Both the position numbers and the translations under genes were made by a program. A stretch of DNA of 49,849 nucleotides. Origin: Bacilli bacterium. Lineage in GTDB: Bacteria > Bacillota_I > Bacilli_A > RF39 > UBA660. Positions 70 to 36,912 of the stretch are shown in pieces. The stretch spans positions 1 to 49,849 of the forward strand of contig JAEEMF010000001.1 in the NCBI GenBank assembly GCA_016283075.1, in the 5' to 3' direction. Under the pieces are notes generated by a model. It was given only the letters and a program-made list of their open reading frames with translations. It had not been told where the DNA came from and did not search any database. How positions within the stretch are numbered: position 1 is the stretch's first letter; the number at the start of each line of letters is the position of its first letter.

Positions 70-2037
70 CTACGGACTACAAGTCTCTATTTTCAATTTA
101 TTATTTTTAATTTTAAACATAATACTGCCATCTTGATCTGTTCTATATATTTTTGATACTTTTAGATTATTTAAGACTTCTTTATTTGGATGACCATATC
201 TATTATTCTTTCCAACACTAATAATGGAATATTTAGGATTCAATTTATTTATAAATTCTTTACTACTACTTGTTTTAGAACCGTGATGTCCTATTTTAAG
301 TACATCTATATTTGGTAAATTATAATTACTTAGTATATCCTTTTCTTTTTCTACTCCGGCATCTCCCATAAACATAAATTTATATCCATTTATATTTGTA
401 TATATGACATTACTATTTTCATTTTCATCATTATACATTTTTGTATAAAAAAAGCTTAATATATCATTATCTATATTTAAATCTTTAATACATGAGTAAT
501 ATAGTATTTTTTTCTCATCTAATTTTTCTATTAAATTATTTTCTAATTCATTAACTTCTCCGCAATTAAATACTACTTTATTTACTTTATAGTTATTTAT
601 TAAATCGGTAGCTTCTCCCATATGATCAAAATCTCCGTGACTAAGTATTATTGTTACATCTTTAATTCCTTTTGATTTTAATACTGGTATTAACACTTTA
701 TTTCCTATGTCGTAGGAAGTACTACCTCCAGTATCAATTAATATATTCCCTTTATTATAAGGATATTCTATTAATATAGAATCTCCCTGCCCTACATCTA
801 TAAAAGTTACTTTATAACTACTATCTAAGAATTTAATATTACTTAAAATATAAATATAGATTATTAGTATAAATAGTTTCTTTATATTAAATCCTTTATA
901 TAAATAGAAAAATAATATGTAATATATACTTATGTAAATGATATTTAAATGAGGTATTATTACATTTATAGAGTATTTATTACAAAATATTGATATAGTT
1001 TCAAATATCTTTACTACTATAAGTAGATATCTATTTAAATAAGGAATAATAAAAGTGAGTAAAGATAAAGGAAATAATATAAAAGAAAGAAGCGGTATAA
1101 ATATAATATTTAGTAAAGGAGATAATATATTTATACTAAAGTTATTATTTATTGTTATAGGAAGACTTATTAAAAGGCAAAGTAAGCTAGTTTTAAATAG
1201 ACTTAATATATAGTTACTACTATTAATAGGAAATAATATTAATCCAATACTTATAGTAAAACTATATATAAATCCAGTATTATAAATATAAAATGGATTA
1301 ATAAATAGAAGTAAACACATTATAGATAAAATAATATCTATATTACTTATTCTCTTATTAAAGATACTTCTTATGATAAAAAATAGTGAACATCTTATTA
1401 CAGAAGGACTCATTCCAGTAAAAAAGATAAAGAATACTAAAAAGATAGATATGAGTATATTAGATACTATTTTTCTTTTAAATATCTTATTTAGCATTAA
1501 AGATAATACTACTATAAAGAATGTTATATGCATTCCAGATACACAGAATAAATGACTTATACCATTTAATTGATATGAGGAGTATATTTCATCATCTAAA
1601 TCATTTTTAGCTAAAATTAGGGTATTTAAATAATGATTATCTATCTTATTTAGTCTATTTATAACTATATTCTTTATTTTATAGAAAATATTAGTATTAT
1701 TCTTAATCTTAATACTATCTAAAGTAAATGTATTATATATTTTCTTACTTAATAGATAGTTTCTATAGTTAAACATATTAAAGTTAGTATTCTTACTAGG
1801 AAGATTACTTTTCCCTTTTACTATAACGTAATCTCCTAAAGAAATATTACTTTTAAAGTTATAATCATTTACTAGAGTATTATTTATAACAAATGATACT
1901 TTATTTTCATAATAAGTAATATCTTTAATAGTACCTTCAATACTTGTAAATTCTTTATATGGATACTTATATAAATTTATAAATAATAGTACATATATAA
2001 AAGTACTACAAAGTAATATAATCCTTAATCTTTTCAA
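70..2037 (-). CDS. comEC: ComEC/Rec2-family DNA uptake channel with C-terminal metallo-beta-lactamase-like domain
   Basis: Multi-TM N-terminus with HLFCVSGMHITFF, then MBL domain FIDVGQGDSILIEYP...SHGDFDHMGE...KIGHHGSKTS; overlaps comEA. Confidence 0.95.
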   Translation of the reverse strand: MKRLRIILLCSTFIYVLLFINLYKYPYKEFTSIEGTIKDITYYENKVSFVINNTLVNDYNFKSNISLGDYVIVKGKSNLPSKNTNFNMFNYRNYLLSKKIYNTFTLDSIKIKNNTNIFYKIKNIVINRLNKIDNHYLNTLILAKNDLDDEIYSSYQLNGISHLFCVSGMHITFFIVVLSLMLNKIFKRKIVSNILISIFLVFFIFFTGMSPSVIRCSLFFIIRSIFNKRISNIDIILSIMCLLLFINPFYIYNTGFIYSFTISIGLILFPINSSNYILSLFKTSLLCLLISLPITINNNFSINILSPLLNIIFIPLLSFILFPLSLLTFIIPYLNRYLLIVVKIFETISIFCNKYSINVIIPHLNIIYISIYYILFFYLYKGFNIKKLFILIIYIYILSNIKFLDSSYKVTFIDVGQGDSILIEYPYNKGNILIDTGGSTSYDIGNKVLIPVLKSKGIKDVTIILSHGDFDHMGEATDLINNYKVNKVVFNCGEVNELENNLIEKLDEKKILYYSCIKDLNIDNDILSFFYTKMYNDENENSNVIYTNINGYKFMFMGDAGVEKEKDILSNYNLPNIDVLKIGHHGSKTSSSKEFINKLNPKYSIISVGKNNRYGHPNKEVLNNLKVSKIYRTDQDGSIMFKIKNNKLKIETCSP

Positions 2038-2612: not shown

Positions 2613-2637
2613 ATACGAGATTAAATGTCTATATCCT
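2613..2637 (-). promoter_or_regulatory. Putative alternative-sigma (SigH/ComX-like) promoter of comEA-comEC
   Basis: Minus strand AGGATAT-N11-CTCGTAT, 20 nt upstream of the comEA ATG; the 12-mer ATACGAGATTAA (+ strand) recurs upstream of radC. Confidence 0.55.
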
Positions 2638-12456: not shown

Positions 12457-13236
12457 TTATCTTTTTAAGGAAACCATTTTATCAACTATATCTTTAACAT
12501 TGTTTTCATTAAATGGTTTTTGAAGTACATCTACTATAGGATAAGTAAATGCTCTCTCTACAGTATCTTTTGAGTCATCTCCTGTAATAATAGATACTGG
12601 AATAATATTATATAGATTATTTACATCTAAGTAATCTAATACTTCAAATCCATTAACATTTGGCATATTAAGATCAAGTAAGATACATGCAAGACTATCA
12701 AAAGTTGTTGTATTAAGTATATCTATAGCTTCTCTACCATCATGTGCTACTACTACATTATAAGTATTATTAAATATTTTAGAAATAAAGTTTCTAATAA
12801 TATCTGAATCATCTACAACTAAAATCGTTTTAGAATTAGGATTTAAAGTAACTTCTTCTTTAACATCTTGAATAGTTGTATTACCAATATATCTTTTTAA
12901 AGTACTAACCATTAAATTAACTTGGTTAAGCATTTCTTCATAAGAAGCATCTGCTCTAGATAAATTATTTTCTTTACCAGCTAGTTCTTCTTCATATGCT
13001 ACTTCAGCAAGTTTAGTAAATCCTAGATATCTTGCATCACTTTTAATTGAATGTGCATATATAGCAAAGTTTGCTAAATCATTATTACCCTTAGATTCTT
13101 TTAAATTATTTAATTTAGAATCAATTTCATTTAAGAAGTCAATTACAGTTTCATCATATGTTTCCATATCTCCTAAAACTTCTAGACTTCCATTAACATC
13201 AACCCCATTTTCAATTAAAATATTTACATCTTTCAT
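12457..13236 (-). CDS. Hpt-REC phosphotransfer/receiver protein
   Basis: Hpt motif YAHSIKSDARYLG; receiver ILVVDDSDIIRNFISKIF...LLDLNMPNVNGFEVL...LQKPF; no effector domain. Confidence 0.88.
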   Translation of the reverse strand: MKDVNILIENGVDVNGSLEVLGDMETYDETVIDFLNEIDSKLNNLKESKGNNDLANFAIYAHSIKSDARYLGFTKLAEVAYEEELAGKENNLSRADASYEEMLNQVNLMVSTLKRYIGNTTIQDVKEEVTLNPNSKTILVVDDSDIIRNFISKIFNNTYNVVVAHDGREAIDILNTTTFDSLACILLDLNMPNVNGFEVLDYLDVNNLYNIIPVSIITGDDSKDTVERAFTYPIVDVLQKPFNENNVKDIVDKMVSLKR

Positions 13237-13250
13237 ATTATCCCTCGTTT

Positions 13251-15104
13251 CTATTTTGTAAGATACTTATTTAATATTTTACTTAATTCATCTTTGTTGA
13301 TTGGTTTAGCAAGATAGTCATCAAATCCATCATCAATATATTTAGTCTTTATTCCATTAGAAGAATTTGCTGTAAGTACTATTACTTTAGTATTAAATCC
13401 TTCAATAGTTCTAAGTTTTCTTAGAGTATCAACACCACTTAATTCAGGCATCATATCATCCATAAATATTAAATCAAAAACTTCATGATTTTTTATTTTG
13501 CTTATACAATCACTACCACTTGTAACACTATCTGTTAAACAGTTAAATGTCTTAAGTAGTCTTTCTACAACCTTTATATTTAAAGGATTATCATCTACAA
13601 TAAGTATTCTTTTACCAGTAAAATCAGTAAGTGCTGGAATATCTTTTTCATCTTTAATAATAGCATTAGATATTTTTTGATTTATTACTACTGTAAATTT
13701 AGAACCCTTTCCATAGACACTTTGTACCATTACAGTACCATGCATCATTTGAACTAGTCTTTTTGTAATAGCAAGACCAAGTCCTGCTCCTTCAACTTTT
13801 AAAGCTTTGGTTGTTTCAAGCTTTTCAAATTTTTTGAAGATTTTTTCTAAGTCTTCTTCTTTTATACCAATACCGGTATCTTCAGAAGATATAGTAAGCA
13901 CGCACTCACCATCAACAATCTTACTATCTACAGAAAATATTACTTTTCCGTGTTCAGTAAACTTAATACTATTAGATAGTAATTGATTCATGATTTGAGT
14001 AACTTGAAGAGGATCACCAAATAATACTTTTGGTAAATTAGGGCTAATGTCAAATATTACTTCAACATCTTTATTTCTAGCCCTTATTTTCATCTTCTGC
14101 TTTACTTCTTTTATTATATCATTAAGTGAGTAATCTGTCTCGTATAATTCAAATTTACCTGCTTCCATCTTAGAAATATCAAGTATTCCATTTACTATAT
14201 CCATAAGTACATATGAAGAATATTCTATTTCTTCTATACTTTCTTTAGTAGCATCATCACTTTTCTTTTCACTAAGAAGCTGAGAAAAACCAAGTATTGC
14301 ATTTAAAGGAGTACGTATTTCATGACTCATATTTGATAAGAAATCATCTTTAGCACTCGCTGCAGTTTCCGTTTGCTTTTTAGTAAACTCAAGTTCATTT
14401 ATAAGTTCAATATTTGGATTATCCAAAGTAAAATATAAAAGGAACAGAGTAAATGATATAGCAAAAGTATTAATTATTACCCCTGGAAATACTGTTTCTA
14501 AGACAAAACATATAAATGTTAAGAATATATATATAACATAAGTGATTAACTTATTAAAATCAATTTCATATAAATGTCTAGATAACTTTATAATCCATAT
14601 AATTGCATATATTATATTCATAAAGAATACAAATACCATTACTGGTCCTCTAAAGAAATATCTAGTATTATCTATATAAAAATGAATTGGCAATATCATT
14701 ATAATAATTGACTGAATAATAGTTATAGCAAATCCAAATATAATAATTCCTCTATTATATCTAAGACCTAAATTACAATATTCTTTTTTAATACCTTTAG
14801 TAGATACATGTAAGAAATATGTAAGGCATACTACATAAAATAACTGTAAGCATAAATAACTCTTAGTAAATAACACTTTACTTATGTTTTCACCAGGATA
14901 CTTATGCATAAAGTATACACTTATTATATTAATGATAATGGATCCTATAACAGATATTATTAATATAGAATAAATGGCGTTTTCTTCTGTTTTTAGTTTA
15001 CTCTTTTTATAAAAAACATAAGATATTATTAATATAAATATTAAACATATTATTGGAATATGTATAACATTAAGATAATCCAAATATTTTTCCATAGTAT
15101 ACAT
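13251..15104 (-). CDS. Hybrid sensor histidine kinase (multi-TM sensor, HisKA-HATPase-REC)
   Basis: H box [23 protein letters not shown], HATPase DTGIGI / GAGLGLAI, REC DLIFMDDMMPELSG. Confidence 0.93.
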   Translation of the reverse strand: MYTMEKYLDYLNVIHIPIICLIFILIISYVFYKKSKLKTEENAIYSILIISVIGSIIINIISVYFMHKYPGENISKVLFTKSYLCLQLFYVVCLTYFLHVSTKGIKKEYCNLGLRYNRGIIIFGFAITIIQSIIIMILPIHFYIDNTRYFFRGPVMVFVFFMNIIYAIIWIIKLSRHLYEIDFNKLITYVIYIFLTFICFVLETVFPGVIINTFAISFTLFLLYFTLDNPNIELINELEFTKKQTETAASAKDDFLSNMSHEIRTPLNAILGFSQLLSEKKSDDATKESIEEIEYSSYVLMDIVNGILDISKMEAGKFELYETDYSLNDIIKEVKQKMKIRARNKDVEVIFDISPNLPKVLFGDPLQVTQIMNQLLSNSIKFTEHGKVIFSVDSKIVDGECVLTISSEDTGIGIKEEDLEKIFKKFEKLETTKALKVEGAGLGLAITKRLVQMMHGTVMVQSVYGKGSKFTVVINQKISNAIIKDEKDIPALTDFTGKRILIVDDNPLNIKVVERLLKTFNCLTDSVTSGSDCISKIKNHEVFDLIFMDDMMPELSGVDTLRKLRTIEGFNTKVIVLTANSSNGIKTKYIDDGFDDYLAKPINKDELSKILNKYLTK

Positions 15105-15105
15105 C

Positions 15106-16986
15106 CTACCTTAAAAATTTAATAAGTATTTCATCTAATTCTTCTACATTAATAGGTTTAGCTAAATACTCATCAAATCCTTGCTCTAAATATTTTTCTC
15201 TAATACCAGTAATAACATTTGCCGTAAGCATCACTACTGGAATATTAAATCCATTTATTTTCTTAAGTTTTTTAAGAGTTTCTGTACCAGATAAACTAGG
15301 CATAACATCATCCATAAAGATTAAATCAGTCTTATTACCAAAAATAGCATATTTAATAGCCTCTTCACCAGAACGAAGTGAAGTAACATTTATTCCATAT
15401 TTAGAAAGAAATTTAGTAATAACTTTAATACTAGTAACATTATCGTCTACTACAAGAACATTCTTACCTTTAAATAAGTTTAAAGAAGATACCTTTATTT
15501 CTTCTTTAACAGGTTTTATAACATTAGTATTAATACCTTGAATTAGTTCAACAGTAAACGTAGAACCCTTACCATATTCACTTGTAACAGATATCTTACC
15601 ATTCATAAGATCAACAAGCCTTTTAGTAAGTGCTAAACCTAGCCCAGTACCTTCAATTTGCATTTGTCTTTCTACACCAAGTCTATCAAATTTAGTAAAT
15701 AATCTATTTAAATCTTCTTTCTTTATACCAATACCTGTATCTTCTACTGAAATAATAAGAGTGCAGTATTTATCAGATAATTTGGCATTAATTTTAAAAT
15801 CTACATACCCTTCTTTAGTATATTTAATAGCATTAGTAAGTATATTAAGTACTACTTGTTTAACATGAATAAAGTCACCTATTAAATATTCAGGAATATA
15901 TGGATCAGCCCATGATCTAAATTCTATATTTTTACCATTTATTCTTGATTTACCAAGTAAACATAACTCATCAAATAATTTCTTAAATCTATATGAATTA
16001 GTCTTTATTTCAAGAATATTTGACTCTATTTTAGATATATCAAGAATACCATTTATAGTATCCAGTAAACTATTAGATGCAACGAGTATTGAGTTAACTC
16101 CATCATTAATTTCTGGATCCTTATTATTTTCTTTAAGTATTTCGGAAAAGCCCACTATAGAATTTAAAGGAGTACGTATTTCATGACTCATACTAAGAAG
16201 GAAATTAGTTTTACCTTCATTAACATCTTCAGCTTTCCTCTTAGCTTCTGTAAGTTGATTTATTATTTCATAATCAGGATTTTGTACAGTAAAGTACATT
16301 ATAACAAGTGTTATAGTAAGCATTATAGTAGCAGTAATATTCTTAATAATAAATACTTGTAAGATAGTATAAATATTAAAACCAAGTATTATAGTAAATA
16401 TTACATGCTTAGTAGGACTACTAACATACTTCCACCTTAGACATAATAAAAAAACTAGTACAATAATTCTAATTAGAAATGCCCCATAAATAAAGATCTT
16501 TATTGAAGAAAGACCAAATAATACAGCATTATTATAAGGAAGCATTAAAATAACACATAATTCTATAACAGATATTGAATAAGATAAAGCAGTAAAGTTT
16601 TTTATCGAATTATCTCTTTTTCTCTCATTACGTTTTGCATAATCAGCATCAAGAGACTTTAAAAATATTTTCGTTTTATGATAATCCGAATTAATTAGTA
16701 TTATTGAATACATAAGAATAATATTAATATTTAGTATTAATGCATAATAATATATAGCTTTTGTAATATATGATATATAAGAATTAGAAGTAAAAATTGC
16801 CAGTGAAAGAGAAGAAATAATATCTAAACAAATACATATAAAAACCATAAATAGTAAAAATGAATATTTCTTACTTTCAACATTGTTAATACGTTTTTTA
16901 GAGAAGTATGCAATAATCATTGCAATATTAAAAAGAAGCGCAACAATTTGTGTATCTATTTGGTCAAGTATTGTAACTAATTCCAT
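15106..16986 (-). CDS. Hybrid sensor histidine kinase (multi-TM sensor, HisKA-HATPase-REC)
   Basis: [29 protein letters not shown] / GTGLGLAL, REC DLIFMDDVMPSLSG. Confidence 0.93.
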   Translation of the reverse strand: MELVTILDQIDTQIVALLFNIAMIIAYFSKKRINNVESKKYSFLLFMVFICICLDIISSLSLAIFTSNSYISYITKAIYYYALILNINIILMYSIILINSDYHKTKIFLKSLDADYAKRNERKRDNSIKNFTALSYSISVIELCVILMLPYNNAVLFGLSSIKIFIYGAFLIRIIVLVFLLCLRWKYVSSPTKHVIFTIILGFNIYTILQVFIIKNITATIMLTITLVIMYFTVQNPDYEIINQLTEAKRKAEDVNEGKTNFLLSMSHEIRTPLNSIVGFSEILKENNKDPEINDGVNSILVASNSLLDTINGILDISKIESNILEIKTNSYRFKKLFDELCLLGKSRINGKNIEFRSWADPYIPEYLIGDFIHVKQVVLNILTNAIKYTKEGYVDFKINAKLSDKYCTLIISVEDTGIGIKKEDLNRLFTKFDRLGVERQMQIEGTGLGLALTKRLVDLMNGKISVTSEYGKGSTFTVELIQGINTNVIKPVKEEIKVSSLNLFKGKNVLVVDDNVTSIKVITKFLSKYGINVTSLRSGEEAIKYAIFGNKTDLIFMDDVMPSLSGTETLKKLKKINGFNIPVVMLTANVITGIREKYLEQGFDEYLAKPINVEELDEILIKFLR

Positions 16987-17040
16987 ATTCTCACTTCCCT
17001 ATCCTAACATTATTAGTATAACATAAATAAACATAAAAAA

Positions 17041-17061
17041 AAACAGATAAAAATCTGTTTT
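17041..17061 (-). terminator. Terminator inside the phosphorelay cluster
   Basis: AAACAGAT-N4-ATCTGTTT followed by a minus-strand T tract. Confidence 0.75.
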
Positions 17062-17839
17062 ATAAGTTTGAATTAATAGATATCATCTTTTCAATTACAA
17101 GTCTAATATCTCTTTCATTAAATGGTTTTTGAAGAACACCTACTATTGGATAATTAAATGCTCTAGTAGTAGTTTCCTTAGAATCATCACCAGTAATGAT
17201 AGCAACTGGTATTTTAACAAATAAATTATTATTTTTTAAGTAATCTAATACTTCAAACCCATTTACATTAGGCATATTTAAATCTAAAAGCATACCAATA
17301 ATATTACCATATGAATTAGTACCAATTATATCAAGTGCTTCTTTACCATCATGAGCAACTAATACTAAGTAATTATTATCGAATATCTTTTGAATAAATG
17401 TTCTAATTACATCAGAATCATCTACAACTAAGATAGTTTTATCTTTTACAGCAGGAGCTGGTGCTACAGTAGTAGTAATAGCTTCTCCCATATATGTTTT
17501 TAAAACATTTATAATTCTATTAGCCTCACCAACAAGTGCATCATAATTTTGATATACATAATTTATATCATTAGCTTTACTTTGCATTTCATGGTTATAA
17601 GCAAGTTCAGCAAGTTTAGTAAGTCCTAAATATTTAGCATCACTTTTTAAAGAGTGAACAAGTATTGCATAATTAGGCATATCACCTGCTACTTTATATT
17701 TTTCGATATCAGCAAGTTTAGTAGTAACACCTGCTAAGAAATCTGTAACAGTTTCATCATATGTAGCCATATCACCAAATAGTTCTAGACTACTAGCAAC
17801 ATCTACTCCATTTGAAGTTAATATATTTGAATCTCTCAT
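17060..17839 (-). CDS. Hpt-REC phosphotransfer/receiver protein (paralogue of 12457-13236)
   Basis: Hpt motif LVHSLKSDAKYLG; receiver ILVVDDSDVIRTFIQKIF...LLDLNMPNVNGFEVL. Confidence 0.88.
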   Translation of the reverse strand: MRDSNILTSNGVDVASSLELFGDMATYDETVTDFLAGVTTKLADIEKYKVAGDMPNYAILVHSLKSDAKYLGLTKLAELAYNHEMQSKANDINYVYQNYDALVGEANRIINVLKTYMGEAITTTVAPAPAVKDKTILVVDDSDVIRTFIQKIFDNNYLVLVAHDGKEALDIIGTNSYGNIIGMLLDLNMPNVNGFEVLDYLKNNNLFVKIPVAIITGDDSKETTTRAFNYPIVGVLQKPFNERDIRLVIEKMISINSNL

Positions 17840-17878
17840 ATCTTCACCTTCTCTATAATCATTATAACATATAATTTA

Positions 17879-19561
17879 TTAATTATCTAAGAATTTAGTC
17901 ATTATTATACTTAATTCCTCTTTTTTAAGAGGCTTAGCTAAATAATCATTAAATCCTAAATTAATATATTTATCTCTCATACCAGTAATAGCATTTGCTG
18001 TTAAAGCAATAGTTGGTATATTAAATTCTGGTAACTCTTGAAGTTTTTTAAGAGTTTCAACACCACTCATCTTAGGCATTAAATCGTCCATAAAGATTAA
18101 ATCAAAGTGTTCACCACTAGATATCTTATTAATTGCTTCTTGACCACTTTGAACAGCTTCAGTGTCAATTTTATACTCTCTAAGAAGTCTTTGAGCAACC
18201 TTAATATTAACCATATTATCATCAACAATAAGAAGTTTCTTACCAGAGCAATCAATTACTTTAGAAGATTTTTCATCTTTACCAAGTACTTCTTCAACAG
18301 GAACATCTTTAGCAATAGCTTGATCTATAGCAATAGTAAATTTAGAGCCTTCTCCGTAGATACTTTGTACTACAATGGAACCATTCATTAAATCAACTAA
18401 CTTCTTAGTAATAGCAAGACCAAGTCCAGTACCTTCAATAGTAATTTCTTTTTCTACACCAAGTCTATCAAATTTACTAAATAATCTATTAATATTAGCT
18501 TCTTTAATACCAATACCAGAGTCTTCTACAGATATAATTAATCTACACATATCTCCTTGAATAATAGAACTAATTCTAAAATCAATATATCCTTCTTTAG
18601 TATACTTAATAGCATTAGTAAGTATATTAAGAATAACTTGTTTAATACGAGAGTGATCTCCATATAATACAGGAGGTATCGTAGGATCTATATTATATCT
18701 AAAGTCGACTGAACTTTCTCCTATACGAGCCTTAGATAAAGTAACAAGTTCATTAAATAATTTATGGAAACTATAATTACTATCAATAATATCTAATTTA
18801 TTAGCTTCAATCTTAGAAATATCAAGAATACCATTAACTATTTCAAGAAGTGTATTAGAAGCAGAAATAATATCTTCTACTTCATCTTTAGCACTTGCAG
18901 GAATATCTTCTTCCTCTAAAGCCTGTGAGAAACCAACAATAGCATTTAAAGGAGTACGTATTTCATGACTCATACTAGCTAAAAACTCGCTCTTAGCATT
19001 GTTAGCATCATCAGCTTGTTTCTTAGCTACTTCAAGTTGCTCTACCATCTTAACATCAGGATTTTCAATAGTATGAAACATTATAAAAACCGTTAAGAAA
19101 TGAACAGCAGTCGAAATAGTAAAATCCGGATTATATTTTTGAATAAAAGTTATAATTAACATTAAAAGAACTAATAACAACATAGGGAAAAATTTTGAAA
19201 ATTTATTAGCTTTCCTATTTGAAAGAAAAACTATAAAAAATATAACAAAAAGGATTGAAGAATATATATAAATAAAATCAACGCAAGTACCCGAAGCATA
19301 TCCTTTATGTTGTTCAAAAGGCAACACTAAAATTAGTATTGTTGAAATAAGATATATTATCCACGAAATAAACTTAAAGTTTTTTGAAAATGACTTATCA
19401 TGGAAACCCACTTTATATATTTCAAATTCGTAGAAAAGAATGATAGATAAAAATGTAATAATATAAACGAAATATAGTTTAATTATTACAGTAGTCAGTG
19501 CTGTATTTAAATACATATTACTAAGATAAATACTAAGCATTTCTAAAATAATACCAATCAT
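17879..19561 (-). CDS. Hybrid sensor histidine kinase; N-terminus probably lies upstream (to 19686) in the other frame
   Basis: [29 protein letters not shown] / [25 protein letters not shown]. The track start has no Shine-Dalgarno; see the frameshift finding. Confidence 0.9.
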
Positions 19562-35285: not shown

Positions 35286-36167
35286 TTACACTAATTTAAA
35301 CTCTCTTGAAATAATCCTCTCATCAGAGCAATATTTAATGACATAATCATTATTTTGCCTACAAATAATAATACCTACGGTCTTATTTTCAAAAGGAGTT
35401 TTCATATTCATATCAATGTAGTTCATATAAGTCATTATTTGGCCTGTATGTTCTTTCTTAAGTTCAGTTACTTTTAACTCCACTACAACGTAACATTTGT
35501 ATTTAATATTATATAAAAGAAGATCAATATAATTATATCTATCACCTATTTTAATTGGATATTCACTTCTTATATAAGTAAAACCATCCCCTAATTCATC
35601 TAAAAAGTTTTCTATATCTTCTAATATTATTTTTTTAAGCACTTTCTCTGAAATAAAAGTATAGCTATTACTTTTATTAATTATAATGGGATTCTTTACA
35701 AAATCAATTACATTTGATTCATCCTTATTTATTAAATTATTCTTTGTATTATCAGGTAATCGTTCGTACTCTCTATACTTTATTCTTTCACGTAATTGTC
35801 TTACTGATAAATTATTTAATTCAGAAATTTTTATATAGTACTGGAACTTATTATCGTCGAACCAAAGGATTTCGCAATAATGGCTCCAACTTAATTTGGC
35901 AGACAGTGTCTGCCATTTTTGAAACACTTTATATAGTTGTCTCATATTTCTTAGATTTCTTTGACTATATCCCTTTCCTAACTCTTTAGTTAATCTTATT
36001 GAATACTCTTTAATAATACCTTCTCCATACTTATTACCTGCATCTAATAAAAGTTTACCAACATTATAATAGGTATCCAGATCACTTTTGTTAATAGAAT
36101 AATGTTTAACTTTTCTATTAACTTCATTATTAATTAGTAAATTCTTAATTTCATTATAATAATTCAT
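35286..36167 (-). CDS. DUF1016 (YhcG-like) PDDEXK nuclease-family protein
   Basis: YGEGIIKEYSIRLTKELGKGYSQRNLRNMRQ, SWSHYCEIL, YNYIDLLLYN...CYVVVELKV. Confidence 0.88.
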   Translation of the reverse strand: MNYYNEIKNLLINNEVNRKVKHYSINKSDLDTYYNVGKLLLDAGNKYGEGIIKEYSIRLTKELGKGYSQRNLRNMRQLYKVFQKWQTLSAKLSWSHYCEILWFDDNKFQYYIKISELNNLSVRQLRERIKYREYERLPDNTKNNLINKDESNVIDFVKNPIIINKSNSYTFISEKVLKKIILEDIENFLDELGDGFTYIRSEYPIKIGDRYNYIDLLLYNIKYKCYVVVELKVTELKKEHTGQIMTYMNYIDMNMKTPFENKTVGIIICRQNNDYVIKYCSDERIISREFKLV

Positions 36168-36886: not shown

Positions 36887-36912
36887 ATACGAGATTAATA
36901 TGCCAATTTCCT
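36887..36912 (-). promoter_or_regulatory. Putative SigH/ComX-like promoter of radC
   Basis: Minus strand AGGAAAT-N12-CTCGTAT upstream of the radC ATG; same 12-mer as comEA. Confidence 0.55.

Follow-up and report, generated by a model that had tools for sequence, protein, structure and literature searches.

The question raised by this locus is whether comEA-comEC and radC are transcribed from the same type of promoter and, if so, by which sigma factor. We addressed it in the window, i.e. the whole stretch of 49,849 nt that was analysed, which is contig C33 of a 1.19-Mb source genome (85 contigs, 78% complete), and in the genomes of the same family of Bacilli.

A two-block element upstream of comEA-comEC and radC

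The 12-mer ATACGAGATTAA was found at 2613-2624 upstream of comEA and at 36887-36898 upstream of radC, and these are its sole matches in the window with up to one mismatch. On the coding strands the sites read AGGATAT-N11-CTCGTAT (comEA) and AGGAAAT-N12-CTCGTAT (radC), exactly as the original prediction had described them. The full forms are AGGATATAGACATTTAATCTCGTAT, which ends 19 nt from the comEA ATG (2593), and AGGAAATTGGCATATTAATCTCGTAT, which ends 20 nt from the radC ATG (36866). The gene names comEA, comEC and radC were upheld by TIGR00426 plus HHH_3, by TIGR00361 and by TIGR00608, respectively (Table 1). Since the reading frames of comEA and comEC overlap, the two genes form one operon and the predicted comEA promoter serves both, and the nuclease gene behind radC is, judging from the spacing, possibly co-transcribed with radC. 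Directly past comEC, a reading frame on the minus strand (53-1), the putative DinD-like gene of the original prediction, starts with MNEIKEYTEKVFEDIKHI and runs for about 17 codons to the contig end, too short a stretch to bear out that label; in Bacillales bacterium Tb.RUG.180, the nearest named relative, the gene after comEC differs from that in the window.

Table 1 Features of the comEA-comEC and radC loci in the window.
Feature	Position	Strand	Details
comEC, DNA translocation channel	70..2037	minus	TIGR00361 above cut-off, E 4e-76
comEA, DNA receptor, 195 aa, SLBB and helix-hairpin-helix	2006..2593	minus	Pfam HHH_3 E 6e-22, SLBB E 3e-9; TIGR00426 above cut-off
SigH-type promoter (predicted), comEA-comEC	2613..2637	minus	-35 AGGATAT 2637-2631; 11-nt spacer; -10 CTCGTAT 2619-2613
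DUF1016/YhcG-type nuclease gene	35286..36167	minus	Pfam YhcG_C E 7e-36, DUF1016_N E 6e-26; 12 nt past radC
radC, 228 aa	36180..36866	minus	Pfam RadC E 6e-41; TIGR00608 and NF000642 above cut-off
SigH-type promoter (predicted), radC	36887..36912	minus	-35 AGGAAAT 36912-36906; 12-nt spacer; -10 CTCGTAT 36893-36887

By itself, the 12-mer is weak evidence, since at least two matches were obtained in 16 of 100 shuffles when one mismatch was tolerated; the two-block form is strong. Within the window, AGGAWAT-N11/12-CTCGTAT occurs only upstream of comEA-comEC and radC, with a gap of 19-20 nt. Genome-wide we found five copies versus none of the reversed pattern, for which the background was about 0.1 per genome on average over 60 genomes. 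All five are located 19-57 nt 5' of a start codon, namely those of comEA, radC, an ORF6N-domain gene and two copies of a gene for a hydrophobic peptide of 27-31 aa, so that the motif, as had been predicted, is found near starts and not at background frequency. Looser patterns did not separate from their controls: GGA-N12-14-CTCGTA was dropped with eight matches versus nine reversed, and AGGA-N13-16-TCGWAT showed no enrichment, with nine matches versus 30 for the reversed form. The matches of the relaxed scan on contigs C6, C23 and C63 were intragenic, as were those of a further scan on C14 and C63.

For an independent assessment, we used a two-block matrix trained on seven dnaG-rpoD promoters from other genera. 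As the comEA and radC sites were not part of the training, the matrix is ignorant of them and the finding is not reused in its own test. On both strands of the window the radC site ranked first (21.1) and the comEA site second (17.7), followed by an intragenic site with a score of 12.2. The best scores in 60 simulated windows had a mean of 14.8 and a maximum of 20.2; radC is thus above all 60 runs, comEA is not. The geometry common to the elements is an A-run with AGGAWWT, a spacer of 11-12 nt and NTCGWAT, and both window sites show the A/GGAWWT -35 and the 11-12-nt spacer of SigH promoters. The -10 block, CTCGTAT in the source genome and GTCGAAT or GTCGTAT in relatives, is a variant of the GGCGAAT of Listeria; that CTCGTAT departs from the usual GAAT core is a point against SigH.

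Recurrence of the element in the family

In Listeria monocytogenes, SigH promoters of the form AAAGGAWTT, 11-nt spacer, NNCGAAT precede comEABC and dnaG-rpoD, both of which are SigH-dependent; their -35 regions read GAAGGACTT or AAAGGAATT, and the -10 after the 11-nt spacer reads GGCGAAT (PMC4754846). A relaxed scan of the source genome revealed AGGATATGAGAAAGTTTTGTCGTAT 26 nt upstream of dnaG, and the dnaG upstream regions of the family carry a recurrent AAAAAAAGGAAAT-N11-GT(C/T)GTATATT, which is clear in nine of 12 genomes, diverged in two (G009 and G020) and absent from one (G015). Thus, sites at both the comE operon and dnaG-rpoD, as in Listeria, are present. The dnaG-rpoD site is the best conserved of the set, and it is the strongest corroboration of the predicted role of SigH.

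The comEA site is less uniform. In a matrix scan of 49 comEA upstream regions across the family, the source genome included, the 99% null threshold was passed by 13 and the 99.9% threshold by eight, with 0.05 expected for the latter. Most family genomes had no recognisable site, so that this control of comEA either is confined to part of the family or has diverged too far for the matrix to recognise. The upstream region of comEA in Tb.RUG.180 contains AGGAAAT-N11-AAAGTAT (matrix score 13.4). Exact matches to the pattern were found four times elsewhere, before comEA in G030 and G035, before a UvrD-like helicase gene in G003 and within a gene in G027. For radC, an own SigH-like promoter was found in only two of 13 genomes, the source genome (21.1) and G035 (16.7), and radC thus appears to have acquired the site in a lineage-specific manner. 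In the remaining genomes, radC is placed directly behind an upstream reading frame, in G033 with a weaker match (12.2).

The enrichment at comG that had been predicted was not borne out. The upstream regions of the pilB/comGA-like pilus ATPase gene scored 0.9-5.7 in 11 genomes, none with a SigH site, so that a site at the pilus (comG) genes, as in Listeria, was not found. For competence genes in general, absence from the source genome would prove little, as it is 78% complete. The pilus ATPase was rejected as a SigH target because of the missing site and because the 11 genomes have a different conserved promoter. The region that separates pilB from a divergently oriented pseudopilin-like gene (L118, L115-L125) contains a conserved element around TATTATATAATA, which is not the SigH motif.

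A stringent pattern scan of 117 family genomes yielded 21 sites versus three for the reversed pattern, 13 of the 21 being in G027, with none reversed there. The genes downstream of such sites in relatives are comEA, comK, exporter plus two-peptide operons, a gene for a UvrD-family helicase, ruvB and a gene for a SpoIIAA-like STAS-domain protein. The spoIIA operon of Bacillus subtilis is SigH-dependent. comK is located behind the site in G101 (Pfam E 3e-46) and in G027 (alike by eye). An ORF6N-domain gene follows a SigH-type site in the source genome (G000:C39:39778, L005; Pfam E 4e-24) and, in a second genus, on contig C15 of G027 (L246), there as a remnant broken by stop codons and followed by a KilA-N gene. 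In addition, G027 harbours several copies of one protein family behind near-identical SigH-type promoters (L244, L249, L252 and L253, with L240 as a broken relative); by eye these had been taken for recombination-promoting nucleases, and the assignment was dropped as neither of the two that were searched against Pfam could be identified.

By promoter likeness, two additional sites were detected in the source genome, one before an exporter operon and one before a gene for a large secreted or membrane protein, and weaker sites were found before recD2 (TIGR01448 E 1e-217) and before an ABC ATPase gene. The exporter operon codes for a C39-peptidase ABC exporter, a 148-aa membrane protein and two peptides with double-glycine leaders, MHTLTKKELENINGG|GYGLYLVISGIIVFVIGAVDGYLRPLKCNR and MVLNTKELQSINGG|AISPTLLNSLAKGLSLLFELGRAVGSGIRRAASGKTCSV (the bar separates the two parts). 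Both peptides pass the TIGR01847 bacteriocin-leader cut-off and the first also that of TIGR03949 (class IIb). The layout is that of class IIb two-peptide operons, a C39 exporter (Peptidase_C39 E 2e-30) with two adjacent double-glycine peptides, and was also seen in G027, G134 and G140, albeit not as an unbiased count of the coupling, since these three operons were found via the motif. From the leader and exporter matches we regard the operon as a putative two-peptide bacteriocin operon; the two peptides may also have a pheromone role.

The hydrophobic peptide (MTKKDLLIS...) is present in four copies in the source genome, two of them in tandem (L001:1370-1830, L004:1499-1730 and L271, on C4, C34 and C21). 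Each copy follows a SigH-type promoter; by eye, it also has a shared palindromic terminator and, facing it, a promoter of sigma-A-like type, so that the loci may be of a type I toxin-antitoxin (Fst/par-like) kind. On C4 and C21, GCCGTAT replaces CTCGTAT. No match to these loci was obtained in Pfam or Rfam. Similar peptides in relatives (L255-L267) seemingly have sigma-A-like promoters instead.

The sigma factor predicted to read the element

Two proteins with a sigma-70 region 2 were found in the source genome, RpoD and a protein of 206 aa. Besides the latter no alternative sigma factor was detected, in a genome that is 78% complete, so that another one could be missing. The 206-aa protein contains the Pfam sigma-70 regions 2 and 4_2, and its top five NCBIfam matches all belong to the SigH/PRK08295 group (E 8e-39 to 3e-31), separated by a large gap from the next specific families SigE, SigK and FliA (5e-15 and weaker). 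As its scores are below the curated NCBIfam SigH cut-offs (133 bits versus 212, and 121 versus 295), we refer to it as a SigH homologue and not as a curated equivalog. Its gene is embedded in the order rlmB-sigH-secE-nusG-rplK, with an mrnC-like gene before rlmB; the same rlmB-sigH-secE-nusG-rplK order is found in G035, for which also only two sigma factors were found. In Bacillus, too, sigH has its place between rlmB and secE-nusG-rplK. The homologue was detected in 97 of 98 family genomes. The search for a sigH or comX homologue suggested by the original prediction thus led to a SigH homologue at the sigH locus, and the ComX-type factor considered there did not turn up in the 78% complete genome.

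What the genomes show directly is where the promoter-like elements lie, how far they are conserved and that a SigH homologue is present. The geometry, the independent matrix, the conservation at dnaG-rpoD and the presence of the homologue all support SigH-type promoters, and we consider it highly probable that the comEA-comEC and radC sites are promoters for the SigH sigma factor of this genome. The further notion of a dedicated competence sigma factor with a dispersed regulon held in part: the sites are dispersed, enriched before starts and mark comEA-comEC in the source genome and in relatives and comK in two relatives, but "dedicated" is too strong, since sites were also found at dnaG-rpoD, SpoIIAA-like, bacteriocin, hydrophobic-peptide and ORF6N genes and the pilus ATPase has none.

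Three other explanations were weighed. That the sites function as ordinary sigma-A promoters, or that another DNA-binding regulator uses them as a common operator, is unlikely. The sequence is AT-rich and full of TATAAT-like strings, comK in relatives indicates that other competence regulators are around, and the assignment to SigH is itself drawn from sequence; yet two blocks with a fixed spacer of 11-12 nt of variable sequence, 19-57 nt before starts, are the geometry of SigH promoters, and the same element occurs at dnaG-rpoD, which has been mapped as a SigH target in Listeria. We judge it very improbable that the promoters are read by a sigma factor dedicated to competence, of the ComX type or another: the gene set does resemble the ComX regulon (comEA/comEC, radC and a two-peptide bacteriocin), and 22% of the genome is missing, but no sigma factor besides RpoD and the SigH homologue was detected, the SigH models match the latter best by a large gap, and the spoIIAA-like and dnaG-rpoD sites fit SigH. 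Hardly any credence is left for chance or copying of a repeated element, without regulatory meaning, as the origin of the shared string, for although the 12-mer alone is not rare and four sites of the source genome belong to the copies of one small-peptide element, the string stands, with spacers that differ, at loci as unrelated as comEA, radC, ORF6N, dnaG and the exporter operon, the independent matrix picks out both window sites, these genes turn up again in other genera, and the conservation at dnaG-rpoD largely refutes this explanation.

A predicted SigH programme and its counterparts

With SigH as the preferred factor, we propose that RNA polymerase carrying active SigH, an old transition-phase sigma factor, would transcribe the uptake-channel genes comEA-comEC, the DNA-processing genes radC and probably recD2, and, in one response, the dnaG-rpoD operon and the exporter operon with its two double-glycine bacteriocin-type peptides. 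This would jointly raise DNA uptake, peptides killing or signalling to neighbours, and the resupply of the housekeeping sigma factor, and induction of rpoD could then help to end the response via sigma competition. The dependence on SigH, the timing, the competent state as such and the action of the peptides as bacteriocins are here predictions from the genome sequences. As a possible precedent for a recombination sigma, MG428 of Mycoplasma genitalium was considered. A broader generalisation is offered tentatively, and we hold it to be somewhat short of an even chance: in a large uncultured family of Bacilli, SigH would directly run a joint programme that combines DNA uptake and recombination genes with comK, a two-peptide bacteriocin operon and an rpoD-based shut-off. 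The layout of the streptococcal ComX programme would then have been attained through SigH or derived from it, and in the species of the window the SigH-driven hydrophobic-peptide loci would form an additional arm.

Among known systems, Listeria is similar in having SigH-type promoters at both the comE genes and dnaG-rpoD. Its regulon includes comG and coiA, with radC not mentioned (PMC4754846), whereas in the source genome the site is found at radC, ORF6N, the hydrophobic-peptide loci and the exporter/two-peptide operon but not at the pilus ATPase gene, and CGTAT forms part of the -10. In Staphylococcus aureus (PMC3486894) and Lactobacillus sakei (PMC3364868), a SigH homologue activates comE genes outside a sporulation setting; there, SigH control was demonstrated experimentally and comG is a target, in contrast to the source genome, where control is predicted from promoter sequences and the pilus ATPase has no site. 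The radC and bacteriocin parts, which carry the element in the source genome, are not mentioned in the portions consulted of the S. aureus and L. sakei accounts.

In Streptococcus pneumoniae, the late regulon of ComX (SigX) places comEA/comEC, radC and the two-peptide bacteriocin genes cibAB under one sigma factor, radC being a late ComX gene (PMC6560143). These are the same gene classes as in the source genome, albeit with another sigma factor and promoter. During pneumococcal competence, rpoD rises by an unexplained route, a rise considered to help late-phase shut-off, and a ComX site has not been detected at the gene (PMC6560143), whereas the source genome has a direct SigH-type site at dnaG-rpoD, which would be a simple and testable way to raise rpoD during competence. 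In Streptococcus mutans, the competence sigma factor SigX co-controls bacteriocin genes, with the link via ComE (PMC4497675); in the source genome the element directly precedes the exporter-peptide operon.

SigH-driven competence in Listeria, S. aureus and L. sakei and the coupling of competence to bacteriocins in streptococci were thus already known. New would be the lineage, a small-genome relative of Bacillus, the apparently lineage-specific radC promoter and the predicted direct coupling to a two-peptide bacteriocin operon. Our literature searches returned nothing on competence regulation in the lineage of the window, and within their limited scope no union of competence and bacteriocin under SigH in an uncultured small-genome lineage. 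Should the proposal be correct, competence under SigH would also exist in a large lineage of uncultured small-genome bacteria, for which the ability to take up DNA would be predicted. It would also suggest a source for the streptococcal ComX programme, because the comEA/comEC, radC and two-peptide bacteriocin classes all appear to stand under SigH in the source genome.

Apart from these loci, the window contains, at 12457-19561 on the minus strand, five consecutive genes that by eye code for three hybrid histidine-kinase-like proteins and two apparent phosphotransfer-plus-receiver proteins, a signalling cluster that is large for a 1.2-Mb genome.
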